From the NCBI GenBank assembly GCA_937929875.1, contig CALFUP010000153.1, positions 1 through 48,231 on the forward strand: DNA of 48,231 bases. The letters are read 5' to 3'. Positions 2,288 through 47,182 of this stretch are shown in pieces. The position numbers and the translations under genes are program-made. Position 1 is the stretch's first letter; every line of letters starts with the position of its first letter. Below the pieces are notes generated by a model that saw nothing but the letters and a program-made list of their open reading frames with translations, was not told the DNA's origin and did not search any database. Origin of the DNA: an uncultured Cocleimonas sp. (GTDB lineage Bacteria > Pseudomonadota > Gammaproteobacteria > Thiotrichales > Thiotrichaceae).

Positions 2288-2308
2288 AATGACACCCCCC
2301 CACTTTTT
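2288..2308 (-). repeat. G-tract dispersed repeat, copy 1 (GTGGGG subtype)
   Basis: Top strand reads aatgacaccccccc then actttt; on the minus strand this is AAAAGTGGGGGGGTGTCATT. It lies 17 bp after the ltaE stop. No long-form distal end was found next to it. Confidence 0.85.
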
Positions 2309-2312
2309 AACG

Positions 2313-2341
2313 AACTTACCGTTGTTTTTAACAAATAAGTT
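2313..2341. other. Imperfect AT-rich inverted repeat beside repeat copy 1
   Basis: AACTTA and TTGTT on the left pair with AACAA and TAAGTT on the right, around a TTT loop with small bulges. It could act as a weak terminator for ltaE, but no clear T-run follows, so this remains a structural observation. Confidence 0.35.
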
Positions 2342-2392
2342 TTAAAAATGGTCTAACCTTCCTATATCACATCATTTTTGTAGGATTATCTG

Positions 2393-3574
2393 ATGAAAGA
2401 AGGTCGCCGTCGTTTTAGCCAAAATGAATACATACACCGCCAAGCGATGACTCGCGATTCGATGCGAAGAAATAGCATTGATCTATTAATAGTTTATGAT
2501 CCTGCCAACATGAATTGGCTTACAGGTTATGATGGTTGGTCATTCTATGTTCATCAATGTCTAGTCATTGGTACTGCAGGTGAATTATTCTGGTTTGGTC
2601 GTGGTATTGATGCCAATGGAGCAAAACTCACAACGGATCTGAGCGATCAGGATATTATTTCTTATCCCGATCATTATGTTCAATCGCCTGACATTCATCC
2701 GATGGAATATTTATCGGGCATTTTAAAAGAACGTCATTTACACAATAAAAAAGTGGGGCTTGAAAAAGACAATTATTACTTTTCAGCACGTGCAGCAGAA
2801 TCTTTATACGCCAGCCTCCCTGATGCTTCATTTTGTGATAACACCGCATTAGTTAATTGGTTACGTGCGGTTAAATCAGATCAAGAAATCGAATACCTCT
2901 CGACTGCTGGCAAAATTATCACCAATGTCTATGAGCACATCATGCAAGTTGTTACGCCAGAAATGCGTAAGAACGAACTCGCTGCTGAAATATCTCATTC
3001 GGCCATCTCTGGTATTGATGGAGCGTATGGTGATTATACTTCCATCGTTCCATTATTAGGTCTTCGGGAAGAAGCCGCGGCCAGCCACATGACCTGGGAC
3101 TCAGAAATAATTGGTAACGACTCAGGAATGTTTCTAGAGCTTGCTGCGGCACATGCCCGTTATCATTGCCCTTGTTCTCGGACATTATATTTAGGAAAAC
3201 CTACTCAGCCCTATTTGGAAGCGGAAAAAGTCATCAACGAATGTATCGAAGTGACTTTGGACATGTTTAAACCGGGAAATACTTGTGGTGAAGTAGCGAC
3301 TAAATTCTTTGGCACTTTAAAAAAGTTTGGTTACGAAAAAGATAATCGCAGTGGTTATTCAATTGGCCTTTCTTATCCGCCGGATTGGGGCGAGCGCACA
3401 ATGTCTATTCGAACGAACGACACCAGCGTTTTACAAGAAAATATGGTATTCCATTTCATGCCTGCATTATGGTTTGATGATTGGGGATTTGAAACCACTG
3501 AAAGCATTGTGGTGACTGAACAAGGCGGACAATGTTTATCCAATGTGCCTCGACGATTATTGGTGAAAAACTAA
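2393..3574 (+). CDS. doeA: M24-family (creatinase-fold) hydrolase, ectoine hydrolase DoeA-like
   Basis: DoeA opens the ectoine ring to N-acetyl-diaminobutyrate in the cytoplasm. The protein has the creatinase N-domain, with PANMNWLTGYDGWSFYVHQ at 37-55, followed by a pita-bread C-domain. The C-terminal half contains GYSIGLSYPPDWGERT, FHFMPALWFDDWG and a closing NVPRRLL, all of which I associate with DoeA/EutD-type proteins. Metal ligands of true M24 peptidases are replaced (FLELAAAHARYHCPCSRT near 245-265; M where a glutamate is usual near 356), as in creatinase and ectoine hydrolase. AGGATT sits 8 bp before the ATG at 2393. No doeB deacetylase or ectoine transporter is visible here, so the substrate may be another amide or cyclic amidine. 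Family is secure; the specific substrate is inferred. Confidence 0.7.
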   Translation: MKEGRRRFSQNEYIHRQAMTRDSMRRNSIDLLIVYDPANMNWLTGYDGWSFYVHQCLVIGTAGELFWFGRGIDANGAKLTTDLSDQDIISYPDHYVQSPDIHPMEYLSGILKERHLHNKKVGLEKDNYYFSARAAESLYASLPDASFCDNTALVNWLRAVKSDQEIEYLSTAGKIITNVYEHIMQVVTPEMRKNELAAEISHSAISGIDGAYGDYTSIVPLLGLREEAAASHMTWDSEIIGNDSGMFLELAAAHARYHCPCSRTLYLGKPTQPYLEAEKVINECIEVTLDMFKPGNTCGEVATKFFGTLKKFGYEKDNRSGYSIGLSYPPDWGERTMSIRTNDTSVLQENMVFHFMPALWFDDWGFETTESIVVTEQGGQCLSNVPRRLLVKN

Positions 3575-3628
3575 ACACAAATTAGCTGTGCTGAACCTAT
3601 TGAAGGCTAGTCTTATGGGATGTTCTAA

Positions 3629-3650
3629 AAGGACACCCCCCCACTTTTTT
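3629..3650 (-). repeat. G-tract dispersed repeat, copy 2 (GTGGGG subtype)
   Basis: Top strand ggacaccccccc acttttt, 55 bp after the doeA-like stop and in the same orientation as copy 1, so the two flank the doeA-like gene as direct repeats. It sits in the 270-bp gap before the aminotransferase gene, which otherwise holds only AT-rich sequence without an obvious gene. Confidence 0.85.
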
Positions 3651-3844
3651 AGTGAGTTTATCGTTTAATAGTTTAAAACGAGTAACTAAATTATTTATTC
3701 TTTCTTAGACATGAGAGTATTTTGCTGTTGGTTCTAATCACAAAAATAGAAAATGCTTATGCTGTTTTAGACGATAAGTCATTCGGCCTTTCGCTATGCT
3801 CGTTTAAAAAGCTCACTCAATCTTACCAAATGGTGTTTTAGATT

Positions 3845-5200
3845 ATGACTATTAATAACGCGAAGGTTATGCAGCGTACTAACAACCCAAACTTGGCAAC
3901 CATTGCCTCTGGTGATGGTGTTTTTTTAATAGATAAACAAGGTAATCGTTATTTAGATGCTTGTGGGGGTGCCGCTGTTTCTTGCTTGGGGCATTCAAAT
4001 GAACGAGTTAAACAAGCAATTATCGATCAAGTAACTGAAATACCTTATGCCCATACTAGCTTTTTCACCAACACGTCTCAGGAGCAATTGGCTGAGCATC
4101 TACTAAATAATTCTTATGGGAACTTCTCACAAGTCTATTTTGTTACAGGCGGATCGGAAGCCGTTGAAACCTCTCTAAAATTAGCTAGACAGTATTTTTT
4201 CGAGCAAGGAAAAACAGAGAAAAGTCTCTTTATCGCAAGAAAGCAAAGCTATCACGGTAACACTCTAGGCGCCCTTTCAATTGGCGGCAATCTTTGGCGT
4301 CGAAAACCCTTTGATTCTATTTTAGTTAAAGGCAATCATATTTCGGCGTGCAATGAGTATCGAGATAAACTCGAAAATGAAACCGAGTTTGAATATGGCC
4401 AAAGAATTGCTAATGAACTTGAAGAAAAAATCATTGAACTAGGCGAAAACAATGTTGCCGCTTTTGTAGCCGAACCAGTGGTTGGAGCGACTGCAGGTTG
4501 TTTGACTCCGCCTACGGGTTATTTCAAACGAATACGGGAGATTTGTGATCAATACGATGTATTACTCATTCTTGATGAAATCATGTGCGGCATGGGTAGA
4601 ACAGGGACTTTACACGCGTGTGAGCAAGAAGGTATTCAAGGTGATTTACAAACTTTAGCCAAAGGGATTTCAGCGGGCTATCAACCACTTGGCGCTGTAT
4701 TGATTAGCGAAAAAATAGTTAATACCATTGATGAGGGCAGTGGGTTTTTCCAACATGGGCATACATATATTGGTCATCCGACTTCTTGTGCGGCGGGTTT
4801 AGCAACACAATTAGAGGTTCAAGAACGTGACTTGTTGAGCAATGTAAAAACTCAAGGCACGAATCTCACTAAAGCGTTACACGATTCCTTCAATTCAGAT
4901 GCATTACTTGCAGATCATGTCGGTGATATTCGTGGGCGTGGGTTGTTTATTGGTATCGAATTAATCGCGAATAAAAGTAGTAAACAAGCCTTCGATCCAA
5001 GCTTAAAACTCCATGCAAAAATAAAGCAAAAAGCGATGTTGAATCGTTTGATGTGTTATCCAATGGGAGGAACGATTGATGGTGTTAACGGCGATCATAT
5101 CTTACTAGCACCGCCTTTTATTATTGATGAAGAGAACGTGTCTCAAATTGTAGATCGTTTAAGTAATAGCATTAGATCATCAATTCAAGAAGTCTTATGA
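3845..5200 (+). CDS. Class III (omega/beta) PLP aminotransferase
   Basis: Transfers an amino group, usually a distal or beta amine, to a keto acid in the cytoplasm. Visible family hallmarks are TGGSEAVETSLKLAR (101-115), SYHGNT (135-140), LDEIMCGMGRTG (243-254) with Asp244 for the pyridine nitrogen, and LAKGISAGYQPLGA (271-284) with Lys273 as the PLP lysine. Length 451 is normal. It is followed after 12 bp by the BKACE gene and then acetoacetyl-CoA synthetase, so a role in producing a beta-keto acid for BKACE is a reasonable inference. An alternative is a diaminobutyrate-type transaminase of ectoine breakdown (DoeD-like), given the upstream DoeA-like gene. Substrate cannot be read from sequence alone. 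Confidence 0.85.
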   Translation: MTINNAKVMQRTNNPNLATIASGDGVFLIDKQGNRYLDACGGAAVSCLGHSNERVKQAIIDQVTEIPYAHTSFFTNTSQEQLAEHLLNNSYGNFSQVYFVTGGSEAVETSLKLARQYFFEQGKTEKSLFIARKQSYHGNTLGALSIGGNLWRRKPFDSILVKGNHISACNEYRDKLENETEFEYGQRIANELEEKIIELGENNVAAFVAEPVVGATAGCLTPPTGYFKRIREICDQYDVLLILDEIMCGMGRTGTLHACEQEGIQGDLQTLAKGISAGYQPLGAVLISEKIVNTIDEGSGFFQHGHTYIGHPTSCAAGLATQLEVQERDLLSNVKTQGTNLTKALHDSFNSDALLADHVGDIRGRGLFIGIELIANKSSKQAFDPSLKLHAKIKQKAMLNRLMCYPMGGTIDGVNGDHILLAPPFIIDEENVSQIVDRLSNSIRSSIQEVL

Positions 5201-5212
5201 GCGATATACATT

Positions 5213-6037
5213 ATGAACGATAAGGAAAATATAATCATAGCCGTGGCACCCAATGGTGCCCGCAAAATGAAAAAAGACCACCCAGAAATTCCATTAAATG
5301 CGATAGAATCTGCTCAAACAGCTCAGGCTTGTTTAGCGGCTGGCGCCAGTATGATTCATTTGCATGTGCGTAATCCCGAAGATAACTCTCACAGTCTCTC
5401 AGTAGCGCTTTACCAGCAAGCTATTGATGCAATTCACGCAAGCTGTAATGAAAGGATGTTTATTCAGGTGACATCTGAAGCAGTAGGTATTTATTCTGCC
5501 GAAGAGCAATTCGAGATGATTCATGCGCTCAAACCAAAAGCGGTTTCCATTGGTTTAAGGGAAATAAAAAGTTTAAAAAACAATACTATTCATGAACATT
5601 TCGTGAAAATGAAAGATGAAGATATACACCCTCAAATCATTCTTTATAATCAAGATGACCTTGATGAATACCACGCGTGGCTAGATAGCAAGGTGCTACC
5701 CGGCAATGCTTACCCTATCTTATTAGTGATAGGCAGACCTAACACGGAAGGTAGTTTTGAAAATAGTTATTTAATTAAAGAGAATATTGAAAAAATTAAA
5801 GCATCGAGTTGGATGATCTGTGCATTTGGTGAAAACGAATTTCCTGCTGCTAAGTTAGCCGCAAATTTAGGCGGACATATAAGAATTGGCTTTGAAAATA
5901 ACAGTGTCCTGGATGATGGTTCTGATGCTAAAGACAATGCAGCATTGATCAATCAAATCGCTGAATATTTGAAAAGTGAAAATTTAAAAAGCGCAGACTA
6001 CACTCAGACAACTAAATTGATGACTCCAGACTGGTAA
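5213..6037 (+). CDS. Beta-keto acid cleavage enzyme (BKACE, DUF849 / 3-keto-5-aminohexanoate cleavage family)
   Basis: BKACE enzymes condense a beta-keto acid with acetyl-CoA and split it into acetoacetate and a new acyl-CoA, using zinc. The sequence shows the TIM-barrel family features: IAVAPNGAR near the start, the zinc pair in MIHLHVRNP (His49, His51), and HIRIGFENN (222-230) with a conserved glutamate near the barrel end. Length 274 is typical. It lies 12 bp after an aminotransferase gene and 20 bp before acetoacetyl-CoA synthetase, which would consume the acetoacetate it makes. Which beta-keto acid it cleaves (3-keto-5-aminohexanoate, dehydrocarnitine, 3-oxoadipate or other) is not determined. 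Confidence 0.88.
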   Translation: MNDKENIIIAVAPNGARKMKKDHPEIPLNAIESAQTAQACLAAGASMIHLHVRNPEDNSHSLSVALYQQAIDAIHASCNERMFIQVTSEAVGIYSAEEQFEMIHALKPKAVSIGLREIKSLKNNTIHEHFVKMKDEDIHPQIILYNQDDLDEYHAWLDSKVLPGNAYPILLVIGRPNTEGSFENSYLIKENIEKIKASSWMICAFGENEFPAAKLAANLGGHIRIGFENNSVLDDGSDAKDNAALINQIAEYLKSENLKSADYTQTTKLMTPDW

Positions 6038-6057
6038 AATAGGATTAACCTAAAAAT

Positions 6058-8016: not shown

Positions 8017-8097
8017 AGTGAATCAATGAAAATATTGATCATCTCAATTATTAGTTTGAACAGTCATTAATTTTAGATAACACAAGGTTACTTTATT

Positions 8098-9678: not shown

Positions 9679-9786
9679 AAAAAGTAGGGGGGTGTCATTT
9701 CGACAGGCTCAATACAAGCATTTCGACTTTTCGCAATCCAGGCATTTCGATTTAGCTTAATAAAGGGTTCGACAAAACAGCCATTT
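9679..9786 (+). repeat. Dispersed repeat, copy 3 (long form, about 107 bp)
   Basis: Starts AAAAGTAGGGGGGTGTCATT, continues CGACAGGCTCAATACAAGC and ends GGGTTCGACAAAACAGCCATTT, matching the distal end of copies 6, 7, 10 and 12. It fills the convergent gap between zapD and ftsY, and its distal end runs into the ftsY stop codon (9785-9787). Confidence 0.85.
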
Positions 9787-15065: not shown

Positions 15066-15089
15066 AAAAAGTGGGGGGGTGTCATTTTT
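15066..15089 (+). repeat. G-tract dispersed repeat, copy 4 (GTGGGG subtype)
   Basis: AAAAAGTGGGGGGG followed by TGTCATTTTT, in the convergent gap between the secreted protein and fpr, 6 bp before the fpr stop codon. Short form: the distal end of the long copies is not present because fpr begins at once. Confidence 0.85.
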
Positions 15090-15954: not shown

Positions 15955-15972
15955 AGACACCCCCCCACTTTT
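15955..15972 (-). repeat. G-tract dispersed repeat, copy 5 (GTGGGG subtype)
   Basis: Top strand gacaccccccc acttttc. It lies in the 235-bp gap between fpr and yggX (15857-16091), which holds no convincing gene. With copy 4 it brackets fpr in inverted orientation. Confidence 0.8.
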
Positions 15973-20719: not shown

Positions 20720-20816
20720 AAAAAGTAGGGGGGTGTCATTTCGACGTTATTGAATATAAGTAATTCGACATACTTCGATTAAGCTGAGTACGAGTGCTCA
20801 ACAAAACTGTCATTTT
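20720..20816 (+). repeat. Dispersed repeat, copy 6 (long form, about 97 bp)
   Basis: Begins AAAAGTAGGGGGGTGTCATT then TCGACG, and ends TTCGATTAAGCTGAGTACG followed by AGTGCTCAACAAAACTGTCA. It sits between the convergent tauE-like and ParC-like genes, 26 bp past the permease stop. Confidence 0.88.
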
Positions 20817-24556: not shown

Positions 24557-24652
24557 AAAAAGTAGGGGGGTGTCATTTGAATGCGCTCAATAATCCAATT
24601 CGACAAACTTTGACTAAGCTGAGTACAAGTTTTCAACAGAACTATCGTTTTT
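24557..24652 (+). repeat. Dispersed repeat, copy 7 (long form, about 96 bp)
   Basis: Starts AAAAGTAGGGGGGTGTCATT and ends ACTAAGCTGAGTACAAGTTT followed by TCAACAGAACTATCGTTTT. It fills the convergent gap between the thioredoxin-fold gene and lipB, 83 bp after the former's stop. Confidence 0.88.
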
Positions 24653-28583: not shown

Positions 28584-28605
28584 AAAAAGTAGGGGGGTGT
28601 CATTT
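28584..28605 (+). repeat. G-tract dispersed repeat, copy 8 (GTAGGG subtype)
   Basis: AAAAAGTAGGGGGG then TGTCATTTT, in the 75-bp gap between mltB and mrdB. No distal long-form end. Relative to copy 9 it is inverted, so the pair brackets mrdB and mrdA. Confidence 0.85.
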
Positions 28606-28627: not shown

Positions 28628-29752
28628 TTAAGTGTTTTGATCATAGCCTCTTTTTCGGCGACGTAAGCCCATCAACAAACCAAACGCTGCCATTAAAGTA
28701 ACCAAAGAAGTTCCACCATAACTAATTAGCGGTAAAGGAACTCCTACTACGGGTAAAATACCACTGACCATGCCAGTATTTACAAGTAAATAAATGAAAA
28801 AAGTCAGGCTTAAGCTACCACCAAGTAATCTTGCGAAGCTATCGTGACCTTTCATTGCTAAGTACAAGCCACGCCAAATGATAAATAAATATAAGAAAAA
28901 TAAAATACCATTGCCGAGCAAACCAAACTCTTCACCAAACACGGCAAAAATAAAGTCAGTATGTCTTTCGGGTAAAAAATCTAAACGAGATTGATCGCCA
29001 TTAAGCCATCCTTTTCCATAGATTCCACCAGAGCCAATCGCGATTGTTGATTGTATAATATGATAACCAGAGCCTAATCTATCCGCTGCAGGGTCAAACA
29101 ACGTTAACACGCGCTGGCGCTGGTAGTCATGCATTCCGAAGTAAAAGACTAGTGGTGCTGCAATGGCAATCGCGGCTACTGAAGCTCCTAGCCATTTCCA
29201 AGGTAAGCCTGCAAAGTAAATAACAAAAAAACCAGCGCAGCCCACTAATAACGAAGTACCCAGGTCAGGCTGTTTTACAATTAGCATCATGGGTACAACT
29301 ACCAACATGCACGCTATGAATATGTCTTTAAAGCTAGGGGGTAAGCTTTTTTTAGAAAGGTAACTAGCGACCATCATAGGTACTGCTAGCTTCATTACCT
29401 CAGAGGGTTGAAAGCGTAAACTCCCTATTTCTAACCATCGTTGTGCTCCCTTACCCATTGAGCCTTGTATAAGAACTAATACCAGAACAGCAACACCAAT
29501 AATATAAATCCAAAACGACCAACGCTTGAGTAAGTCACTTGATAACTGTGTTGCGATCAACATGACCACTGTCGCTAAAACTAAGTGAATCGTATGCTTA
29601 TTCATCATTTTAATATTTTCGCCACTGGCGCTAAATAATATGATGGTGCCTAATGCAATTAATAAAGCTAAAGCTACTAATAAGACTAAATCGAGTGATG
29701 CTAACCAACGAAATATATAACTACTTAAGCCAGAGGAGTTTTTTGAATTCAT
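28628..29752 (-). CDS. mrdB: Rod-shape peptidoglycan glycosyltransferase RodA
   Basis: SEDS-family polymerase of the elongasome that works with PBP2. Ten or so membrane segments. Family motifs are visible: GKGAQRWLEIGSLRFQPSE, KQPDLGTSL, GIYGKGWLNGDQSRLDFLPERHTDFIFAV and the C-terminal PVVGVPLPLISYGGTSL. Length 374 matches RodA. Its start overlaps the mrdA stop by 4 bp (ATGA), so expression is coupled to PBP2. The elongasome partner genes mreBCD are not in the window. Confidence 0.96.
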   Translation of the reverse strand: MNSKNSSGLSSYIFRWLASLDLVLLVALALLIALGTIILFSASGENIKMMNKHTIHLVLATVVMLIATQLSSDLLKRWSFWIYIIGVAVLVLVLIQGSMGKGAQRWLEIGSLRFQPSEVMKLAVPMMVASYLSKKSLPPSFKDIFIACMLVVVPMMLIVKQPDLGTSLLVGCAGFFVIYFAGLPWKWLGASVAAIAIAAPLVFYFGMHDYQRQRVLTLFDPAADRLGSGYHIIQSTIAIGSGGIYGKGWLNGDQSRLDFLPERHTDFIFAVFGEEFGLLGNGILFFLYLFIIWRGLYLAMKGHDSFARLLGGSLSLTFFIYLLVNTGMVSGILPVVGVPLPLISYGGTSLVTLMAAFGLLMGLRRRKRGYDQNT

Positions 29753-31782
29753 TGCACTGGCCTGATTATTGTTTGATTTTTGGTTTTATTGCTTGAGCCA
29801 TTAATCAAAGCTTGAGTTTTAAGCTGTCTTTTTAATTCAGCCTCTTTCCTTAGTTTATTGATATTCATCAAAGAGGGTGAAGAATCAGATTCAGTTGAAT
29901 CATCATTCGCCATTAATTCTTCTTTCTGTTGAGGAGTCAGCAAATAAGTATCCAACAGTTTACGAGCTAAAGGTGCAGCCACTTTGCTTCCACCACCAGC
30001 ATTTTCAGCAATAATTGCAAGAGCAATACGTGGGTTTTCTAAAGGAGCGAATGCCACAAAAAGTGAATGATCGTGAAGTTTCTTTTTAAGTTTAGATGCG
30101 TCATAGGTCTTGTTTTGTGCAATACCAAAAACCTGAGCAGTTCCTGTCTTACCCGCATATCGATATTTTGCACCTGCTGCCGATGACCTAGCAGTGCCAT
30201 GTGCTCCATGCACAACATTAATCATGCCGCGTTCTACATCATCCCAATACCTTAGTTTTGTTACACCGACAGAAGGTAGTTTTTCTGGAGTAACTAATTT
30301 TTTAGGTAAATTGCGAGAAACCCTTGTTGCTCTCAGAATATGAGGTCTAAACTGACGCCCATGATTAGCAACAATAGCGGTGGCATGAGCTAATTGTAAT
30401 GGTGTAGCCGTAAAAAACCCTTGGCCAATACCTGAGTTAACCGTGTCACCTGGATACCAGAATTTATCAAAGCGTTTGCGTTTCCATTCCGCAGTTGGCA
30501 TTAATGCTTTGCTTTCATGGGGAAGATCAATACCTGTGCGTAAACCAAAACCAAACCGAGACATTGCTTTTGAATAGCGTTTTATCCCCATGCGAAAAGC
30601 AAGATCATAAAAATAAACATCACATGACTGATACAAAGATCGGTTTAAACTTATGTGACCATGGCCGGCTTTTTTCCAGCATCTAAATTTACGTTTATTT
30701 CCAGGAATTTGATAAAAACCTTTTCCGTAAACTGAGCTAGATGGTGTTACTACACCAGAATTTAAACCTGCAATTGCCGCCATGGGTTTAATTGTGGAAC
30801 CTGGTGGATAAGCACCTTGTAAGGCACGATTAAAGAGTGGTCTATCAATATTATCGCGAAGAGCATTGTAGTTAGCGTAAGAAATACCATTTACGAATAA
30901 ATTTGGATCGTATGCAGGCATACTTGCCATTGCTAACACTTCACCATTCCGAGGATCGATAGCAACAGCTGCACCATTATGCTCTTTTAGTAGTTCTTCT
31001 GCTTTGATTTGGAGCTCAATATCAATACTAAGAAATAAATCTTCACCAGTTGTAGCTGCTTTTTCATCGAGCTTTAATTGCGGTTTTCCATGCGCATCAA
31101 CTTCAGTTAATTCGTATCCCGCTCTTCCATGTAATCGAGATTCATATTGCTTCTCTATACCTGACTTGCCAATATGAGTTGTGCCTTGATAGTTTGCTTT
31201 TTGTGCCTCATCCATATTTTTTAAATCGCGTTTGTCAATTCTACCGACATAACCAATTAAATGGCTTGCAAGAGAGCCCAACGGATAATTTCGCTGTACT
31301 CTGACGCTGACTTTAAATCCAGGAAAGCGCGAGCGATTGGCTGAAAATATAGCTATTTCTTTTTCTGTAAGATTTTTACGTAAAACGACTGGAAGAAAGC
31401 GAGAATTGACACGTAATTTTTGTTTGTACTTGTTCACTTCTTGGATAGTGATTGGAAGCAGTTGCATTAGCTTATTTAAGCTAGCTGGCATATCTTTCAC
31501 ATCATCTTCTGCGGCTTCTAAGACATATTCAATATGGTTGTCAGCTAAAACAACACCATTTCTATCATAAATCAGACCACGAACGGGAGGTACAGGAATA
31601 CGTTTTTGGTAGTTTTCTTTGGAAAGAGCAGTGAAATGCTCATATTGATTCATTTGTAGAAAAACCAGGCGTGCAAATACAAGTGATAAAGCAATCAATA
31701 CCAACAAAGCAGCAACGTAGGCACGCGAGCGGAATAAACGATATTCCTCACGTTCACTTTTGACTGTTACACGTTTTTCCAT
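29749..31782 (-). CDS. mrdA: Penicillin-binding protein 2 (elongation transpeptidase)
   Basis: Monofunctional transpeptidase cross-linking lateral-wall peptidoglycan with RodA. A single N-terminal transmembrane helix (about 21-43, AYVAALLVLIALSLVFARLVF) is followed by the pedestal with RGLIYDRNGVVLADN. The transpeptidase motifs are STIK (329-332), SCD (386-388) and KTGT (545-548), all intact. A Lys/Ser/Asn-rich tail follows from about residue 627, longer than in E. coli. Length 677. The usual upstream rsfS-rlmH pair is replaced by a gap with a MITE-like element and ppa. Confidence 0.96.
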   Translation of the reverse strand: MEKRVTVKSEREEYRLFRSRAYVAALLVLIALSLVFARLVFLQMNQYEHFTALSKENYQKRIPVPPVRGLIYDRNGVVLADNHIEYVLEAAEDDVKDMPASLNKLMQLLPITIQEVNKYKQKLRVNSRFLPVVLRKNLTEKEIAIFSANRSRFPGFKVSVRVQRNYPLGSLASHLIGYVGRIDKRDLKNMDEAQKANYQGTTHIGKSGIEKQYESRLHGRAGYELTEVDAHGKPQLKLDEKAATTGEDLFLSIDIELQIKAEELLKEHNGAAVAIDPRNGEVLAMASMPAYDPNLFVNGISYANYNALRDNIDRPLFNRALQGAYPPGSTIKPMAAIAGLNSGVVTPSSSVYGKGFYQIPGNKRKFRCWKKAGHGHISLNRSLYQSCDVYFYDLAFRMGIKRYSKAMSRFGFGLRTGIDLPHESKALMPTAEWKRKRFDKFWYPGDTVNSGIGQGFFTATPLQLAHATAIVANHGRQFRPHILRATRVSRNLPKKLVTPEKLPSVGVTKLRYWDDVERGMINVVHGAHGTARSSAAGAKYRYAGKTGTAQVFGIAQNKTYDASKLKKKLHDHSLFVAFAPLENPRIALAIIAENAGGGSKVAAPLARKLLDTYLLTPQQKEELMANDDSTESDSSPSLMNINKLRKEAELKRQLKTQALINGSSNKTKNQTIIRPVQ

Positions 31783-31830: not shown

Positions 31831-31851
31831 AAAGACACCCCCCTACTTTTT
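31831..31851 (-). repeat. G-tract dispersed repeat, copy 9 (GTAGGG subtype)
   Basis: Top strand gacacccccctactttt, 49 bp upstream of the mrdA start. The region 31783-32279 has no protein gene: it holds this repeat, the MITE-like element (32015-32190) and the ppa terminator. Confidence 0.85.
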
Positions 31852-32014
31852 AACTAATAATTAGTTTTTTGTTTTGAAACGCAAGCTTGGAATTAAAATA
31901 AAGCCAGCGATTAATAATACTTAGAACATACGATCTTAAGTGAAATTCTTAAATAGATTCTTGGTTGATACTAGACATGCAGAAGTGACTATCGTTCAAC
32001 AAATGATCTGCTAA

Positions 32015-32190
32015 ATAATTAGAGACCTTTGCATGAGAGACATGACGGATTAAAAATGCTTAAGTTCTTCTTATTTTCCTTAGAAATTCGCTCAGTAGCC
32101 TTGCTATTAAGCTCAATTTTAAGAAAAATAGTTGAAATCACGCAATTTTTTATCTCGCCATTCTCTTGTGCAAAGGTCTAAACTAATTAT
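32015..32190. mobile_element. MITE-like element or IS remnant with terminal inverted repeats
   Basis: AGACCTTTGCATGAGAG (32023-32039) is matched as an inverted repeat by CTCTTGTGCAAAGGTCT (32163-32179), 15 of 17 positions. The flanks ATAATTAG (32015-32022) and CTAATTAT (32183-32190) extend the symmetry with a 3-nt gap. The 120-bp inside has no open frame. Ends beginning near AGACCTTTGCA are reminiscent, from memory, of some IS5-group elements. The inside is too short for a transposase, so it is a non-autonomous element or an internal-deletion remnant. Confidence 0.6.
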
Positions 32191-36423: not shown

Positions 36424-36507
36424 AAAAAGTAGGGGGTGTCGTTTCGATCATGCTTAATATAGTTTTTCGACGAAACTCAGTACAAGTGCTTAACAGAAAT
36501 GTCATTA
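36424..36507 (+). repeat. Dispersed repeat, copy 10 (long form)
   Basis: AAAAAGTAGGGGG then TGTCGTTTCGAT, ending GAAACTCAGTACAAGTGCTT then AACAGAAATGTCATT. Starts 9 bp after the pyrR stop. With copy 11 it makes a unit bounded by inverted core sequences. Confidence 0.88.
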
Positions 36508-36519
36508 TTAGAATAAATA

Positions 36520-36536
36520 GACACCCCCCTACTTTT
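36520..36536 (-). repeat. G-tract dispersed repeat, copy 11 (core only, inverted relative to copy 10)
   Basis: Top strand gacacccccctactttt, 13 bp after the distal end of copy 10. The pair gives an element of about 113 bp (36424-36536) with inverted GTAGGG termini between pyrR and pyrB. Confidence 0.88.
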
Positions 36537-39360: not shown

Positions 39361-39456
39361 AAAAATGACAGTTCTGTTGAGCACTTGTACTGAGCTTTGT
39401 CGAAGTCTGTCGAATTAGGTTCCTGAGCTTTGTCGAAGGACCCCCCCCTACTTTTT
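39361..39456 (-). repeat. Dispersed repeat, copy 12 (long form, about 96 bp)
   Basis: Read on the minus strand it starts AAAAAGTAGGGGGGGG then TCCTTCGAC, includes AAGCTCAGGAACC and ends CTCAGTACAAGTGCTCAACA followed by GAACTGTCATTTTT. The core differs from other copies by an extra G run and loss of TGTC. It lies alone in the 353-bp gap. Confidence 0.85.
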
Positions 39457-40831: not shown

Positions 40832-40923
40832 TCGGGTTTCAAATTTATTTAAGATGGTTATTTTGGTGTAAAACGATTACATCCTGATATTCTAGCGCGT
40901 AAGATTCATTTTAAGGAATCTCA

Positions 40924-42690
40924 TTGCGAATTAGACAAAAAATGATCAAGATAACACATTCTGCTGGCAAAGATGCTGCACTCTCAGAACAAGTTGCCAA
41001 GTTAAAACAGAAGCTACTCAATTATGGTATCAACATAGTAGAAGACTCTTGTTTGAACCCTGTTGATAATATTTGGTCGATATCAGTTAGTGATCGAGAA
41101 TGCCCAGTTCTTAATTGTAGTGGCTATGGCGCTTCAAAAAACGCTGCAATGTTTTTCGCTTTAAGTAGATTCATTCAGCAATTAACAACACATCATTTTT
41201 GGTCTGACTATTATCTTGGGGACGAAGTTGCAAATAGCAAATTTGTTCATTCTGTAAATGAGGTTTGGTTTGCACCGAATACCAGTGATTCATTCTGGCC
41301 AGAAGGCGTATTAGACAACGAGTTTAGTGAGAGTGAAGGAACGTTACGCGAATTATATAATCCAGATGGTGAGCTCAATATCAGTCGTTTGATTGACATG
41401 AATTCGTCAAACCTTGACCGTGGTATTTGTTGCGTTCCTTATCGAAGTATTAGAACAGGTGAAATTGTCAATTTTCCTGTGAACATTATCGATAATATAT
41501 ACTCTTGCAATGGTATTGGATCGGGAGACACAATTCATGAAGCTCGGCTTGATGCTTTGTGCGAAGTGATAGCTAACTATATTCAATTCAAAGTTATCTC
41601 TGAGGGAATCTCACTCCCCAATATACCCGACGGAATATTAAGTCGTTATCCTAGCTTACTAAAGAGCATTCAAGATATTGAAAAATTAGGTCTTTCTGTA
41701 TTGGCAAAAGAAGCTTCTTTAGGTGGGCAGTATCCGGTATTAGCAATGATCTTAGTAGACCCGAAAAATCAGGGTGTCTATTCGAATTTCGCTGCTCATC
41801 CAGATTTTGAAGTTGCTTTTGAGCGTTCACTCACTGGTCTGTTCCAAGACCGAGATCTAGAACATTTAGATGGCTTTCTAGAAGCTGGGTTTGATATGGA
41901 TGAAATGGCAAGTCCGAATAACCTTGAGGCTCATTTTAAACGTTCTCAAGCTCGCTCTTCAAATGGCAGAGTGCCTTGGTTGTCTCTGAATGATAAGCCA
42001 GATTTTGATTTTGTAGCGTGGGACAAACAAGTCTCTATTAAAAACTATGAAGAAGAGTTTCATCACCTTTGTGATTTGGTACACGCAGATGGGAATGAGG
42101 TTTTCATATGTGAACATGGTGACATAGGTCTAAACATTTGTAGGATAATCGCTCCTGGTATGTCTGAAATCTATCCAGTTGATCGCTTGGTGCTAGAAAA
42201 TAATAATGCAGGCATGGATGTTCGAGAACAGATTTTAAAAAAAGAAAAATCATTGGCTGAATGTGAACAACTCATTCAAGACTTAGAAGAGCTAAATCAA
42301 GATGACTACTGTTTAGTTTCGACTCTAATAGGTATGGCGGCAGATACAGATAGTATATTTCATGATCTATGCGTTGCTGAATTAATTACTCTCTTGGCTT
42401 TAAAAGTACAAGATAACGAACGTATCCAAGAAGGTTGTGAATGGTTACTCCACTTCAAACAATTAAACCCCAGACGTTTAAAAACCTATCATTGTATTAA
42501 TACGATTCTGCAGCTAGATACTATGACGAGTTATGCAATAACTTTAGAAAAACTATATACCAAAGAAATTTTAAGCGATGCATTAGCGCTGATTGACGGT
42601 GAAGATGTTTTTCCATTAGTCAGCAAATGGAAAATGCACGGTCTACTGGTCGATGCTTATGTAAAAGTGAATGAAACGAGAAAAAAGTAG
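40924..42690 (+). CDS. ycaO: YcaO-family protein with degenerate ATP/Mg site
   Basis: Homologue of E. coli YcaO, an accessory factor in RimO methylthiolation of ribosomal protein S12. Homology runs end to end: GKDAALSEQVAKLKQKL, LNPVDNIWSISVSD, LDRGICCVPY, SLGGQYPVLAMILVDP, AAHPDFEVAFERSLTGLFQDR and CRIIAPGMSEIYPVDRLVLENN. The C-terminal half is helical like YcaO. Two nucleotide-site motifs are altered: E. coli EYFERLST reads RFIQQLTT (82-89), and SEVFERY reads CEVIANY (213-219), so three of four Mg-binding glutamates and an arginine are lost. TTG 40924 is used because AAGGA lies 6 bp upstream; ATG 40942 is an alternative. The TAG stop lies in a repeat. Confidence 0.85.
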   Translation: MRIRQKMIKITHSAGKDAALSEQVAKLKQKLLNYGINIVEDSCLNPVDNIWSISVSDRECPVLNCSGYGASKNAAMFFALSRFIQQLTTHHFWSDYYLGDEVANSKFVHSVNEVWFAPNTSDSFWPEGVLDNEFSESEGTLRELYNPDGELNISRLIDMNSSNLDRGICCVPYRSIRTGEIVNFPVNIIDNIYSCNGIGSGDTIHEARLDALCEVIANYIQFKVISEGISLPNIPDGILSRYPSLLKSIQDIEKLGLSVLAKEASLGGQYPVLAMILVDPKNQGVYSNFAAHPDFEVAFERSLTGLFQDRDLEHLDGFLEAGFDMDEMASPNNLEAHFKRSQARSSNGRVPWLSLNDKPDFDFVAWDKQVSIKNYEEEFHHLCDLVHADGNEVFICEHGDIGLNICRIIAPGMSEIYPVDRLVLENNNAGMDVREQILKKEKSLAECEQLIQDLEELNQDDYCLVSTLIGMAADTDSIFHDLCVAELITLLALKVQDNERIQEGCEWLLHFKQLNPRRLKTYHCINTILQLDTMTSYAITLEKLYTKEILSDALALIDGEDVFPLVSKWKMHGLLVDAYVKVNETRKK

Positions 42691-42703
42691 GGGGGTGTGA
42701 TTT
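42682..42703 (+). repeat. G-tract dispersed repeat, copy 13 (overlaps ycaO stop)
   Basis: AAAAAGTAGGGGGG then TGTGATTT. The TAG at 42688-42690 is the ycaO stop codon, so the repeat supplies the last lysine codons and the stop. Confidence 0.88.
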
Positions 42704-42824
42704 TTAAATCTTTATTGACCTTAAAAATAGCTTAAAAGGTTTAAGTGAATATTTAAAGTGATCTAAGGCTAAACAGTAAATCACTCACACTACGAGTAGA
42801 TCAAAAAAACACGAAAAGCGGCTA

Positions 42825-42859
42825 AATATCCTGAAGTGCTATTTACACTTCAGGATATT
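42825..42859. terminator. Stem-loop after pit, between convergent genes
   Basis: AATATCCTGAAGTG (42825-42838) pairs perfectly with CACTTCAGGATATT (42846-42859) around a 7-nt loop, 4 bp past the pit stop. The stem is strong but T-tracts on either strand are short, so it may be a terminator or an mRNA-stabilising hairpin. Confidence 0.55.
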
Positions 42860-42862
42860 AAA

Positions 42863-44125
42863 TTAACTAAATATGCCTTTCAAAGTGAAGAAGAACAATA
42901 TTGAAAGAATCGCGCCAGCAGGTAACGTGATTACCCATGACATAAAGATATTACCTACAACCCTCAAGTCAATTGCCGCAATTCCCCTTGCTAACCCAAC
43001 CCCCAAAATTGCACCTACTAAGGTCTGAGTAGTTGAGATTGGAAGACCGGTGTATGAAGCTAAAACTACGGTCGACGCTGCTCCAATTTCAGCAGAAAAA
43101 CCACGAGTGGGAGTTAATTCAGTGATATTTTCACCAACGGTAGCCATAACTTTGTAACCCAAAGTAGCCAAACCTATAACGATACCTATTGCACCTACCA
43201 ATAATACCCAAGGCGGAAGAGAAGACTTTGATGCAAGCTCTCCAGACTGAGCAATACTGATAACAGCAGCCATCGGGCCAACAGCATTTGCCACATCATT
43301 AGAGCCGTGAGCAAAAGCCATAGCGGCTGCCGTAAATACCATCAATACCGCAAATATTTTTTCTACATTAGCGAAGTGAAAGCGTTTTTCTGCTTTCTCA
43401 TCAAATTTTACTTGTCTAATTAAATACACACCAACTAAGGCAACTATCAATCCTAAGATGCCAGCGTAAACAAACTCCAGTCCACCACTAACATCTAATC
43501 CAATATGTTTTAAGCCTTTTTTGATTGTTACCAAGGCGATGATAAATCCGACCATAAATAAATAAGCGGGACCATATTTTTTAGCGTTTGCTAATGGATT
43601 GGTTGTATTGATAACTAGTTTTTGGATGCTCATAAATACAGCAAACGCAATAGCACCTGCAAGAACCGGAGAAACTACCCAGCTCATTACGATGGTGCCA
43701 ACCTTGCCCCAGCTAACGGCATCAACACTAACACCTACCGCAGCAAAACCTATAACCGCTCCAACGATACTATGCGTGGTAGATACCGGCCAACCTTTCA
43801 TGGATGCGATTAATAGCCATGTACCTGCAGCTAATAATGCAGCTAGCATGCCCCAAATTAACAAATCCGGATTACCTTCAAAGGCATTCAGATCGACAAT
43901 ACCTTTTCGGATGGTCTTGGTAACCTGACCTCCAGCAAGAAAAGCACCTAAAAATTCAAATATAGCAGCTATGATTATAGCTTGTTTAATAGTGATGGCT
44001 TTTGAGCCAACTGAGGTCGCCATTGCATTTGCAACATCGTTTGCACCAATACCCCATGCCATAAATATGCCAAATACGGCTGCAAGAATGATATAGATAA
44101 ACGCAGTATCAGATAAAAAGTCCAT
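42863..44125 (-). CDS. pitA: Low-affinity inorganic phosphate transporter (Pit family)
   Basis: Proton-coupled metal-phosphate transporter of the inner membrane, 420 residues with about ten membrane segments. The duplicated family signature is visible: GIGANDVANAMATSVGSKAIT at about 25-45 and FAHGSNDVANAVGPMAAV at about 267-284, with PVSTTHSIVGAVIGFA and PISTTQTLVGAILGVG in the second part of each half. It is 12 bp after the PhoU-like gene, the usual pair. No Pho box is evident upstream. Confidence 0.94.
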   Translation of the reverse strand: MDFLSDTAFIYIILAAVFGIFMAWGIGANDVANAMATSVGSKAITIKQAIIIAAIFEFLGAFLAGGQVTKTIRKGIVDLNAFEGNPDLLIWGMLAALLAAGTWLLIASMKGWPVSTTHSIVGAVIGFAAVGVSVDAVSWGKVGTIVMSWVVSPVLAGAIAFAVFMSIQKLVINTTNPLANAKKYGPAYLFMVGFIIALVTIKKGLKHIGLDVSGGLEFVYAGILGLIVALVGVYLIRQVKFDEKAEKRFHFANVEKIFAVLMVFTAAAMAFAHGSNDVANAVGPMAAVISIAQSGELASKSSLPPWVLLVGAIGIVIGLATLGYKVMATVGENITELTPTRGFSAEIGAASTVVLASYTGLPISTTQTLVGAILGVGLARGIAAIDLRVVGNIFMSWVITLPAGAILSILFFFTLKGIFS

Positions 44126-44137
44126 GCTGGATTCCTC

Positions 44138-44818
44138 TTAGCGAGCTAGCATTAATGATAAACGACTGCCAACACGTTCTGCATTGTCAGCGATATTTCC
44201 TACCCATTCAATCAGGCGGTATGTGAAAACTACATCTACTGGGCTTAGGTCTTTTTCTAAGCTGAATAAGGTGTTACGTAGAACATCTTGCATTTCGTCT
44301 GTTTCAGTTTCGATCACACCCAATTTTTCAATCATGGTTTCAACACGATCTACTTCTAAGCCACGGAAACCTGTTTCGACTAGCTCATCTAATTCATTAA
44401 TTGTATTTAGAGATTGCCTAACAGTATCAATACAACGATTGGTTAGTTTTTGAAAATCATCATTCATTTGCGCAGGCAGTTGCATATTACGGCTTACAAT
44501 AAGTCCTGCAATATCCTTAGCTTGATTGACAATTTTATCTTGGGTTAATAAAACATCTAAAATATCGCGACGATCAACAGGCATAAACAAGCCTTTTGGA
44601 AGGTGAGTTCGCAACTCATGCTTCATTTCATCGGCATCGTGTTCGCCTTTAACAATTTCTGCTTGAGCGGCTAAAATGGCTTTCGTATCACCCGTTATCA
44701 TGCCTTCTACCAATGGTGATAAGTGCTTGATACTCATGTAAACACGATACATATGTTCTTGAAGTGGTTTGATTGGTGAGCGCCCGAACAAGCCAGACAT
44801 ATAGTTAGATGAAACCAT
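44138..44818 (-). CDS. PhoU-like Pit accessory protein (DUF47, TIGR00153 family)
   Basis: A 226-residue all-helical cytoplasmic protein of the DUF47 group, distant relatives of PhoU that are typically encoded just before Pit transporters and thought to modulate them. Seen are FGRSPIKPLQEHMYRV, GEHDADEMKHELRTHLPKGLFMPVDRRDILDVLLTQDKI and WVGNIADNAERVGSRLSLMLAR. Length is normal. It is the first gene of the two-gene minus-strand operon with pitA; the 228-bp gap to the ankyrin gene should hold promoters for both directions. Confidence 0.93.
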   Translation of the reverse strand: MVSSNYMSGLFGRSPIKPLQEHMYRVYMSIKHLSPLVEGMITGDTKAILAAQAEIVKGEHDADEMKHELRTHLPKGLFMPVDRRDILDVLLTQDKIVNQAKDIAGLIVSRNMQLPAQMNDDFQKLTNRCIDTVRQSLNTINELDELVETGFRGLEVDRVETMIEKLGVIETETDEMQDVLRNTLFSLEKDLSPVDVVFTYRLIEWVGNIADNAERVGSRLSLMLAR

Positions 44819-45004
44819 AATTAATTCTCAAAAATGTGAAGCATAAAAAACGCGGAGTTTAGGGCTTGAAAAAGAATATGTAAAGCAAGAGTCATATCCA
44901 AATTTCACACAATAATCACTCGATTATAGGACATAAATACCGCTTGTTTGTGGTTTGTAACACTTTAGTTAAATTTGATGATCTGATTCATTTTTCCAAT
45001 GTAC

Positions 45005-45010
45005 TATAAT
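45005..45010 (+). promoter_or_regulatory. Candidate -10 element of the ankyrin gene
   Basis: TATAAT lies 37 bp before the GTG start at 45047. No good -35 box is seen at 16-18 bp spacing (TCTGAT is the nearest). GAGGAG at about 45032-45037 is a strong ribosome binding site for the GTG. Confidence 0.4.
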
Positions 45011-45046
45011 TTCAAATGATATTGAGTCATAAATGAGGAGTCTTCT

Positions 45047-45817
45047 GTGTCAAAGCTTAAAGTTAGTACCATCATAATAGGAGTTTTTTGTTCTTTCCTG
45101 GGAGCAATGCAAATCGCTACTGCAAATAGTATTGATTACAATGCAGTTGATGTTGGTGCTTTACAAAGTCAGTATCAGAGTCAGTTAAAACCACGAACTC
45201 CAAAGAAAGTTAAAACAAGAAAACCAGTTAAACGAAATAAAATTAACAACTCTGAGTTACTTCGATATCAAAAGTTATTAGCTGCACCGCAATCAGTTAA
45301 TAAGCAGCAAGCTAAAAGACCTCCAGTAAGAAAAGCTGTGACAAAACCTGTTCGACAAGTACAAAAACAAGTTACGCCACAGCGTCAAGTTCAACGACAA
45401 CAAGTAGTGCAAAGAAGAGTTGTGCCTAAGCCTCAAGCGGCAGCTCCTAGAAGAGATGCAATTTTTGAAGCGGCTTCAACTGGTAATGTCAGATTGATCG
45501 GTCAGCTAATAAGACAGGGTGTGAATGTCAATCAAGCAAATGGTGAGCGTGAGACTGCTTTACATATGGCTTCTGCAAAAGGACATTATTCAGCGGTAAT
45601 CTATTTGTTGAATCATGGTGCTAACATCAATGCGCGAACGGTAAACAATTGGTTGCCTATTCATCACGCAACTCGCTTTAGACACGCTCAAATCGCTAAC
45701 TACTTAAAGCAAAAAGGTTCGCCTATTTATGCCAAAACCTCAGATGGAATGAGTGCAGTAGACATGGCTAGAACTTTGAATGACACTCGAATTCTAGGTA
45801 TTTTTGGGATTCGATAA
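45047..45817 (+). CDS. Exported ankyrin-repeat protein with basic Gln/Arg/Val linker
   Basis: A 256-residue protein with a signal peptide (TIIIGVFCSFLGAMQIATA) so periplasmic or secreted. The middle (about 50-135) is strongly basic and repetitive, with TPKKVKTRKPVKRNK and VQKQVTPQRQVQRQQVVQRRV. The C-terminal part has about four ankyrin repeats (136-254): RRDAIFEAASTGNVRLIGQL, ETALHMASAKGHYSAVIYLLNHG, LPIHHATRFRHAQIANYLKQKG and GMSAVDMARTLNDTRILG. The start is GTG with SD GAGGAG. A protein-binding role is likely; the partner is unknown. Confidence 0.85.
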   Translation: MSKLKVSTIIIGVFCSFLGAMQIATANSIDYNAVDVGALQSQYQSQLKPRTPKKVKTRKPVKRNKINNSELLRYQKLLAAPQSVNKQQAKRPPVRKAVTKPVRQVQKQVTPQRQVQRQQVVQRRVVPKPQAAAPRRDAIFEAASTGNVRLIGQLIRQGVNVNQANGERETALHMASAKGHYSAVIYLLNHGANINARTVNNWLPIHHATRFRHAQIANYLKQKGSPIYAKTSDGMSAVDMARTLNDTRILGIFGIR

Positions 45818-45826
45818 GCAACTTCT

Positions 45827-45855
45827 TATAAGTATTTTTTGTAAAAATACTTATA
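45827..45855. terminator. Bidirectional terminator between ankyrin gene and trpD2
   Basis: TATAAGTATTTTT pairs perfectly with AAAAATACTTATA around TGT. It lies 10 bp after the ankyrin stop, and its right arm contains the trpD2 stop codon (45851-45853). T-runs exist on both strands within the stem. Confidence 0.75.
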
Positions 45856-46978
45856 TATTAGCCCCAGAATTCTTCAAACGTTGAATAACAGCGCCAGATT
45901 GCAACACTTTGCTCACAGCATTCGCGGCCTCAACTAGTGTTGCATAACGTTTGCGGTGCAGTAATACAATTGCTGCATTGTACAACAGACTATCGTAAGC
46001 CATTCCTGCCTGTCCTGTTAACGCAGCTAAACCTTCTTTTGCCGCAGCCGCTGAAGCTGCTTCCGCATTGATAACTCCATGATCATCTTCACTAGGCTCT
46101 GGTAAATCATCTGGTAGAGGGATAGCTCGTTTTTTTACGTCGATACCTATACTTTTAGGGTCAAGTTCAACCAAGCTTTCTTCACCTTGATTGTGATAGC
46201 CAAAATATTTGCCTTGTTGTTGTAAAGAAGGAGTAATTCCACCCTCTACTCCTCGGATGATAGCTGCACTATCAAATCCTGAAAAACGACCAAGTTCGGT
46301 GTAAATAGCGGGATACTCTGAATGTACATAGCCACACACCATCAATGTTTCATTGCGTCCAGAAATGGGTTTAAGCAGGCTTTCCGTAGTCGTTAATGCA
46401 GATCGTTTAATCAATCGTTCGCGTAAGTCGACAAGATTATGCAAACTTGGGTTAATTGCTTTTTGATCTATATAGGCCCAGCCAATATCTCGATTAGCTA
46501 ATTGCTTGGCCGCTTCAGCGACTGATATGTCAACATTAATACCTATTGATTTCAACACTTTGTGATGGGTCAATCCAAATTTGGGGCCTACTGATTCAAC
46601 GCCATGTGAATAAGCAGCTTCACCCATTTCCGCTAATAAGGGTGCAAGAAATGCAGTTACCGACAAGCCACGCACGTATCCATTATAAGGCTCAGAAATA
46701 TCAATAACGGCATCAACATCCGCAGTAACTCGATTGCTTGTTTGTATAAGTGCTTCTAAAAAGCCTTTATTTTCCTCTATTGATTCGCGCTTCATTCGTA
46801 ACGCAATTAAGAATACTCCTGCCCTTACTTGATCTGCATCACCTTTTAAAATTGATAACAATGCATCTCGCGCATCCTCTTGCGATAGGCTTTTACTATA
46901 ACCAGGACCAGTGGCTACCTTTTGAATACAACGATAAAGAATGTCATCAAGGTCGGGATTTTGTTGGGATTTATTCAT
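45851..46978 (-). CDS. ybiB: TrpD2/YbiB-like glycosyltransferase-fold protein
   Basis: Homologue of anthranilate phosphoribosyltransferase but of the TrpD2 (YbiB) branch, whose E. coli member has been reported to bind nucleic acids rather than make tryptophan. The N-terminal helical domain (LSQEDARDALLSILKGDADQVRAGVFLIALRMK) and the nucleoside phosphorylase-like C-domain (FLAPLLAEMGEAAYSHGVESVGPKFGLTHHKVL) are present. TrpD's PRPP motif GTGGD is replaced by EPYNGYVRG and the KHGN region by SHGVESVG, consistent with loss of catalysis. No other trp gene is close. 375 residues. Confidence 0.82.
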   Translation of the reverse strand: MNKSQQNPDLDDILYRCIQKVATGPGYSKSLSQEDARDALLSILKGDADQVRAGVFLIALRMKRESIEENKGFLEALIQTSNRVTADVDAVIDISEPYNGYVRGLSVTAFLAPLLAEMGEAAYSHGVESVGPKFGLTHHKVLKSIGINVDISVAEAAKQLANRDIGWAYIDQKAINPSLHNLVDLRERLIKRSALTTTESLLKPISGRNETLMVCGYVHSEYPAIYTELGRFSGFDSAAIIRGVEGGITPSLQQQGKYFGYHNQGEESLVELDPKSIGIDVKKRAIPLPDDLPEPSEDDHGVINAEAASAAAAKEGLAALTGQAGMAYDSLLYNAAIVLLHRKRYATLVEAANAVSKVLQSGAVIQRLKNSGANI

Positions 46979-47118
46979 GGTAGCGACAGTAGCAATTGTA
47001 TGAGTAAAGGGTCAAGTAAACATAAGAGATATAAGAATGACTCATTGGTTTTTATAAATCTAAAGGCAGGTAAATATTTACTAAACAGTAATAAGTAGGA
47101 TAAACTCAATCAAATATA

Positions 47119-47130
47119 GAGCGATCGCTC
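47119..47130. promoter_or_regulatory. 12-bp perfect palindrome upstream of fadB
   Basis: GAGCGATCGCTC is a perfect palindrome, 148 bp before the fadB start and upstream of repeat copy 14, in the 299-bp gap between divergent trpD2 and fadB. It could be an operator for either gene; no known consensus is matched. Confidence 0.35.
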
Positions 47131-47160
47131 GTTTTTAAGCATCAACCCAATAAAACCTAT

Positions 47161-47182
47161 AAAAAGGTGGGGGGTGTGTTTT
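47161..47182 (+). repeat. G-tract dispersed repeat, copy 14 (divergent GTGGGG subtype)
   Basis: AAAAAGGTGGGGGG then TGTGTTTT, 95 bp before fadB. More diverged than the other copies (an extra G before GTGGGG; TGTC reads TGTG). Lies in the promoter region rather than after a gene. Confidence 0.65.

Follow-up and report, generated by a model that had tools for sequence, protein, structure and literature searches.

A G-tract word of Cocleimonas-like genomes as a candidate DNA uptake sequence

A stretch of 48,231 nucleotides from an uncultured Cocleimonas sp. (Thiotrichaceae; assembly GCA_937929875.1, contig CALFUP010000153.1, positions 1 to 48,231), here called the window, raises the question why one short word built around a run of Gs should recur in it on both strands, mostly between genes. 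Cocleimonas-like bacteria are marine sulfur oxidisers. We find that this core is a genuine genome-wide word that acts as if it were read by a protein. With a probability of about 0.68 we take it to be a candidate DNA uptake sequence (DUS; USS, uptake signal sequence, in other lineages) of Cocleimonas-like Thiotrichaceae, where uptake itself is what we infer. Published work is quoted below from excerpts of the papers.

Abundance, anatomy and placement of the core

The first pattern, GTAGGGGGGTGTCATT with at most 3 mismatches, matched 12 times in the window against 0.11 expected, and 12 matches were reached in 0/100 shuffles. Two further copies, one at 36424 with one G missing and one at 47161 that is the 13-mer AAGTRGGGGGGTG with 2 mismatches, bring the family to the 14 copies listed in the initial annotation. 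Hundreds of copies genome-wide had been predicted there, and a genome search had been named as a possible refutation; the search came out for the family. In the genome to which the window belongs (G000, 3.25 Mb, 87% complete) the pattern AAAAGTRGGGGGGTGTC with at most 1 mismatch gave 662 matches and the reversed-pattern control gave 0. This is the over-representation expected of uptake sequences, and hundreds of copies are also present in congeners. The density is one core per 4-5 kb. Within 388 kb of G000 we counted 105 cores, of which 67 match perfectly, 33 have one mismatch and 5 have two. They have a two-block anatomy: an A-tract about 10 bp upstream (positions -11 to -7 in the position table of the G000 cores), then AAAAGTRGGGGGGTGTC, then a T-tract.

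Even though open reading frames (ORFs) make up 88% of the DNA, 98 of the 103 cores that are flanked by ORFs on both sides in these 388 kb are mainly extragenic. The sites are densest in convergent gaps, at 3.67 per kb in the own genome, 2.77 in the congener G003 and 3.72 in the congener G008, followed by co-directional gaps (2.16, 1.58 and 1.59, respectively) and divergent gaps (0.68, 0.70 and 0.55); the G003 and G008 pieces used for these densities and for the pair counts are partly orthologous. The orientation of the sites towards the genes follows no consistent rule (opposite/same 34/25 in the own genome, 64/72 in G003 and 14/21 in G008). Most own-genome sites are solo (93/105), the other 12 lying within 150 bp of another core. 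Where neighbouring cores are less than 100 bp apart they are inverted, in 33 of 33 cases over the three genomes, and inverted pairs near gene ends are a property looked for in uptake sequences; the excerpts of PMC7811141 and PMC12616744 describe such pairs as terminators.

Published uptake sequences are also described as preferring non-coding DNA and as evolving by point mutation (PMC1939737). A preference for permissive DNA combined with presence in genes is seen here as well, even though the share in genes is far under the published values: with naive ORFs of at least 100 aa, 3/105 cores lie in genes in the own genome, 49/287 in G003 and 16/93 in G008. The 49 copies of G003 are wholly within such ORFs, 40 of them more than 40 nt from the ORF end. 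The copies inside genes take a coding-friendly, codon-compatible letter. Among exact copies that lie 60 nt or more inside the ends of ORFs of 150 aa or longer, the degenerate letter is G in 25/26, compared with 27/210 elsewhere, and the copies read SGGV, KWGG or KVGG and, on the opposite strand, TPP and HPP. ORF calling bars an in-frame TAG in only one of the six frames, so that it cannot explain this difference on its own.

Dialects and change in place among relatives

The survey of relatives covered 57 genomes, of which 12 are of the genus (G000 and eleven congeners), 24 others of the family and 21 of the class. The own-genome pattern occurs 713, 390, 375, 229 and 106 times in five of the eleven congeners and 0-4 times in the other six; beyond the genus it occurs 0-4 times in the 24 family genomes and 0 times in the 21 class genomes. 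The reversed control over the 57 genomes gave 0, except for two class genomes with 1 match each. A scan of named genomes for the core returned, among the matches listed, at least 38 stretches, 36 of them from two uncultured Cocleimonas metagenome-assembled genomes, one from a Thiotrichaceae bacterium and one from Lunatimonas.

Other congeners carry other dialects of the word. The dialect AAANAGGGGGGATGGGTAT (at most 1 mismatch) is found 374 times in G002, 319 times in G010 and 13 times in G011 and is absent from the remaining 36 of the 39 genomes searched, and the dialect AAAARRGGGGGGGTG (exact) is found 160 times in G011 and 36 times in G010, with 0-6 matches in the ten others of the genus. 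G007 has a GTGTA form. The dialect of G003 and G008 has a free letter after GTG, and its form AAGTRGGGGGGTGNC (at most 1 mismatch) gave 1014 matches in G003 and 1 in the reversed control. The genomes of G001, G005 and G006, which lack the motif, were searched whole with the own-genome, AAANAGGGGGGATGGGTAT and AAAARRGGGGGGGTG patterns, and a search for over-represented 12-mers in pieces of these three (16-37 kb each) gave no G-tract word. In a tree of two proteins G003 and G008 group together, as do G002 and G010, and G001 and G005 are sisters (100% support each), while a further 100% split sets G000, G009 and G004 apart from the rest; some sequences of this tree are partial, several other nodes reach only 33-51% and the deep nodes are weak. 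The dialects go by clade, have a common anatomy and are in line with the gene tree, the pattern expected of uptake sequences, for which clade dialects have been described (PMC3630211).

Several dialects can be compared in the gap upstream of the penicillin-binding protein (PBP) gene of the window. The sites of G009, G008 and G003 there have the form of the respective genome, and those of G002 and G010 have the ATGGGTAT dialect form. The gap was recovered in all congeners except G004, G006 and G007, and it has no site in G001, G005 and G011. As a side observation, two stretches of a viral collection contain the 17-mer and a third contains one ATGGGTAT dialect form (contigs L208, L209 and L210, one exact word each); these are possibly host sequence, prophage or chance.

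How the sites change can be followed between G003 and G008, whose alignments are 87% identical. Out of 109 G003 sites compared, 44 are without counterpart in the G008 DNA fetched and 65 could be mapped; 61 of the latter are present in both species, 3 are near and 1 is absent in G008. For four of these 61 the mapping spans a gap, in two cases or more a gap of very unequal length, and the safer set is therefore the 60 sites within one alignment, with 57 common to both species, 2 near and 1 absent. Over the 57 common sites the 13-bp core differs at 14/741 letters (1.9%) and the flanks at 426/2280 (19%) and 382/2223 (17%); requiring presence in both species tilts these values slightly toward conservation, with only 3/60 sites excluded by it. 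The A-tract positions -13 to -9 diverge by 0-7% each. A G003 letter is missing in G008 at 0% of core positions, at 0.6-0.8% in the outer flanks and at 2-4% just 3' of the core, where gaps were scored only in this sense and insertions in G008 were left out.

At two non-core positions the differences run one way. Position 13 is G or C in G003 and A or T in G008 at 21 sites and the reverse at 0, the corresponding numbers in the flanks being 356 and 278, and position -2 is C in G003 and A or T in G008 at 16 sites, again with 0 in reverse. One-way differences at many separate sites are what is expected from a drifting reader and not from neutral decay.

The copies of the window and their satellites

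The coordinates of the window copies are collected in Table 1. They had been described as lying outside or at the edge of genes, in both orientations, and this largely holds: 12 of the 14 are in gaps, and the exceptions are those at 42683, at the end of a YcaO-family ORF, and at 15956, in a doubtful ORF. Of the positions first given, 39361 marks a distal end and not the core belonging to it. The entries at 36424 and 36520, listed as two copies, are both present, but together they make a single inverted pair whose halves are about 80 bp apart. The stop codon of the YcaO-family ORF is a TAG inside the core. Scans of the window against Rfam (gathering threshold) and for tRNAs gave no match.

Table 1. 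Cores and modules in the window
Feature	Position	Strand	Basis or comparison
Core AAAAGTGGGGGGGTGTC	2291..2307	-	pattern match
Core	3632..3648	-	pattern match
Core of long copy, with TTCGAC units extending to about 9785	9680..9696	+	pattern match
Core	15067..15083	+	pattern match
Core within a doubtful TTG-start ORF of 82 aa	15956..15972	-	pattern match, ORF list
Core of long copy, distal end near 20816	20721..20737	+	pattern match
Core of long copy, distal end near 24651	24558..24574	+	pattern match
Core	28585..28601	+	orthologous gap of G009, equally 75 bp, carries a diverged core in the same position
Core upstream of PBP gene 29749-31782	31834..31850	-	pattern match, gap comparison among relatives
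Core with five Gs, left half of inverted pair around TTCGAC/CTCAGTACAAG module	36424..36440	+	
Core, right half of inverted pair	36520..36536	-	
Core of long copy (module 39361-39438)	39439..39455	-	orthologous gap of G008 and G003 contains a core but no module
Core overlapping the end of the YcaO-family ORF (ORF ends 42690)	42683..42699	+	
Degenerate core AAAAGGTGGGGGGTGTG	47162..47178	+	13-mer with 2 mismatches
TTCGAC..GCTCA modules	9697-9785, 20738-20816, 24575-24651, 36443-36519, 39361-39438		each 3' of a core (36443-36519 within the inverted pair)

A long form with a common distal end had been proposed for five of the copies. The form is real, but its length is not conserved. Units of the type TTCGAC..GCTCA follow within 60 nt downstream of 22 of the 103 cores in the 388 kb of G000. 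An end resembling AACTGTCATT is present at 17 of these 22 cores, 28 to 184 nt from the core, and at 8 of the 81 cores without units; this distal end echoes the TGTCATTT of the core itself. Seen from the units, 30 of 37 have a core no more than 200 nt upstream of them and two more follow degenerate cores, while the remaining five look like chance, except perhaps the one at 10641 of contig L094, which follows GTCATT. The module is scarce in two of the relatives, with 13 occurrences in 1.16 Mb of G003 pieces and 4 in 0.35 Mb of G008 pieces. We read it, from these arrangements, as a separate satellite that would have settled beside pre-existing sites and not as a part of the core, and it could itself be mobile.

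Two other repeats were noticed. One, at 32014-32188 of the window, is about 160-180 bp long and is bounded by imperfect terminal inverted repeats, GAGACCTTTGCA.../...TGCAAAGGTCT. The genome has at least 20 further copies of it at 82-91% identity, and copies at 75-83% identity occur in G007, G008 and G011. It looks like a miniature inverted-repeat transposable element (MITE), with ends that we take to be IS5-like. A further inverted-repeat family, with ends like CCTGAATCC[AG]TGA, occurs in intergenic DNA of G010 (L156, L157) and G011 (L154).

Uptake, its rivals and known systems

Under the uptake reading, one of the minor pilins of the type IV pilus, perhaps a DNA-binding protein similar to FimT, would bind the motif on extracellular DNA; the bound DNA would be pulled in with the help of ComEA, enter single-stranded through ComEC and recombine. 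If fragments bearing the motif are favoured in uptake, alleles nearer to the preferred word of the reader would keep displacing worse ones, sites would build up by point mutation wherever the sequence is unconstrained, and a drift in the preference of the reader would shift the sites together and give rise to species dialects. The genes for such a pathway are at hand: ComEC was found in 11 of the 12 genus genomes (none in G004, 89% complete), and ComEA and pilins of the GspH/FimT family in all 12. Among 27 GspH/FimT loci, 8 gave a FimT-like ORF, 2 a further pilin with GRIR and 9 a FimU-like ORF without GRxR; another 8, the FimT locus of the own genome among them, gave no usable ORF (wrong in 5, none in 3). 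All eight readable FimT-like ORFs (G009, G004, G008, G003, G011, G007, G002 and G005) have GRx[RK] near the C-terminus, and a GRxR motif is described for FimT (PMC8897410).

Several observations speak against uptake or fail to support it. The ComEC, ComEA and GspH/FimT genes are also present in the motif-less G001, G005 and G006 and do not discriminate, so that they permit the uptake reading but do not prove it. The share of copies in genes is far smaller than that given for H. influenzae (65%) and N. gonorrhoeae (35%; PMC1939737), and the density is below that of meningococcus, with about 1900 uptake sequences in 2.2-2.3 Mb (PMC3630211). The 65% leading-strand share described below is somewhat at odds with published uptake sequences, for which the excerpts of PMC1939737 give no orientation bias. 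The sharing of sites between G003 and G008 shows persistence and not origin, and the 3 of 60 aligned sites that differ in state are too few for gains and losses to be followed. There is no depletion in the little accessory DNA sampled, one 9-kb block of G003 unaligned to G008, with 3 sites compared with 0.25 per kb elsewhere, a small sample. The evenness of spacing gives no firm support either and is only suggestive: under a null with one site per gap, five stretches gave p = 0.19, 0.17, 0.025, 0.002 and 0.017, that is 3/5 at p<0.05, and the five include two orthologous pairs. A stronger evenness (0/2000) came from a null allowing several sites per gap, and it shrank under the one-site-per-gap null.

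We consider it unlikely that the word is a chromosome-maintenance signal read inside the cell, be it a polar word like KOPS (FtsK-orienting polar sequences) or Chi, or a site for a chromosome-organising nucleoid protein. One site per 4-5 kb, conserved positions and a somewhat even spacing would suit such a signal, as would the strand switch at dnaA in G003, where 16 cores are on the plus and 27 on the minus strand to the left and 46 and 22 to the right (p 0.003). In addition, cores more than 300 bp apart are on the same strand as their neighbour in 56 cases and on the opposite strand in 21. In the dnaA contig of G003, 72/110 cores (65%) are on the leading strand, but so are 69/115 of the non-core runs of five or more Gs (55/91 in ORFs, 14/24 outside) and 409/692 and 58/101 of the runs of four or more Gs in and outside ORFs, respectively. 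Over all contigs the shares are 190/286 (66%) for cores, 170/266 (64%) and 50/78 for runs of five or more Gs in and outside ORFs and 167/287 (58%) for intergenic runs of four or more; this count is partly circular, as the strand of contig C2 was set partly from the cores, with a positive GC skew there to about 240 kb. Taken per stretch, an early correlation with GC skew came out weak for G000 (rho 0.52, p 0.016), and G003 showed none (rho -0.04). Since non-core G-runs lean to the leading strand at 58-60% and cores at 65% in the dnaA contig, most of the polarity is expected from base skew; the bias is mostly, perhaps not wholly, such skew, no polarity beyond it was established, and a KOPS-type function was dropped as a candidate on this ground. 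The 13 bp with the A-tract are also longer than KOPS or Chi, and neither the sparse divergent gaps nor the inverted close pairs are what such a signal would lead one to expect.

The gap types bear on two readings that involve transcription, both of which we hold to be improbable. Binding by a transcription regulator of very broad range, or by a nucleoid-associated repressor, could account for sites that are mostly intergenic and keep their orthologous positions, and the dialects hint at a protein reader; yet the promoter-bearing divergent gaps have the lowest density (0.55-0.70 per kb compared with 2.77-3.72 in convergent gaps), there is no orientation rule relative to genes, and some copies lie deep within long ORFs. 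The preference for convergent gaps would suit a terminator or 3'-end processing signal. Inverted pairs can form hairpins of the A-stem-T kind (e.g. L001 1502 and 1527), co-directional sites are closer to stops than to starts (37/22 in the own genome, 84/52 in G003, 21/14 in G008), and the folds of 60 solo sites are slightly more stable than those of shuffled sequences (G strand -7.76 vs -6.94, p 0.04; C strand -5.00 vs -4.03, p 0.009). This folding excess is only about 1 kcal, however, and 93/105 own sites are solo; there is no orientation rule relative to transcription, sites also occur in divergent gaps and long ORFs, and no stem is evident by eye in the ATGGGTAT dialect. The statement of the initial annotation that the core is not a simple terminator can be upheld; most cores are solo, and the solo cores are nearly unstructured. 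Its proposal of a mobile family, similar to repetitive extragenic palindromes (REPs) or MITEs, is very improbable. Hundreds of near-identical copies and a long-form distal end that echoes TGTCATTT are in its favour, but the cores are mostly solo and non-palindromic, the terminal inverted repeats and empty sites expected of a MITE were not found (12/105 cores lie within 150 bp of another), and letters change in place, while the ORF copies fit codons. Two checks suggested with the proposal went against it. The cognate Y1/RAYT transposase (PF01797, E<=0.001) had no match in the 87%-complete genome, whereas 5/14 control genomes match, and the alignments of G003 and G008 gave 57/60 sites filled in both and only 1 absent. 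Different dialects are carried by related species, and in one gap they occupy the same position.

Uptake sequences have been described for Pasteurellaceae and Neisseriaceae (PMC7811141), and our literature search, with subscription journals and preprints outside its scope, gave no title or abstract tying them to Cocleimonas or Thiotrichaceae. We lean slightly towards a wider proposal, namely that this is a third lineage with signals for self-DNA uptake, in which G-tract words in about five dialects within one genus would be read by a minor pilin, and in which transforming DNA could carry along the TTCGAC satellites that have settled beside the sites of one clade. If true, a further lineage with several dialects per genus would be an independent test of a molecular-drive origin of such signals and would offer natural pairs of reader and word for finding specificity determinants. 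It would also extend sexual isolation by DNA words to Cocleimonas-like bacteria.

It is useful to compare the general features of the core with those of known systems. REP/RAYT elements and MITEs likewise have many intergenic copies, and REPs often begin with GTAG. Here, in contrast, most copies are solo and non-palindromic, no Y1 transposase was found and the positions are common to relatives. KOPS (with the related FtsK recognition sequences, FRS) and Chi are similar in being G-rich and biased to the leading strand, Chi with about one site per 5 kb. However, they are short words, KOPS of 8 bp and Chi of 5-8 bp, and the present sites have a bias near that of other G-runs, inverted pairs and a bias for gap type.

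The likeness is closer to the two established families of uptake sequences. The DUS of Neisseriaceae, with eight dialects (PMC3630211), share with the present word dialects that follow phylogeny, inverted pairs and, usually, one dominant dialect per genome. The word itself is unrelated. DUS are denser, with 943 to 5918 copies per genome among those named in that paper, are common in genes and have a known receptor, ComP (PMC3630211), whereas the reader here is only putative. The Hin-USS of Pasteurellaceae, printed in extended form as AAAGTGCGGTCAATTTT (PMC12616744), is similar in its hundreds of copies, a short G-rich core after AAAGT, adjoining AT tracts, inverted pairs at gene ends and dialects. 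It differs from the present core, for which we infer uptake, in that the latter has a G6 tract, an extra conserved A-tract upstream and far fewer genic copies and belongs to another family. Even so, the layout of Hin-USS, AAAGTG followed by a G-rich part, T..CA and TTTT, resembles AAAGTGGGGGGGTGTCATTTT here, a likeness that would reflect either homology or convergence and may be convergent.

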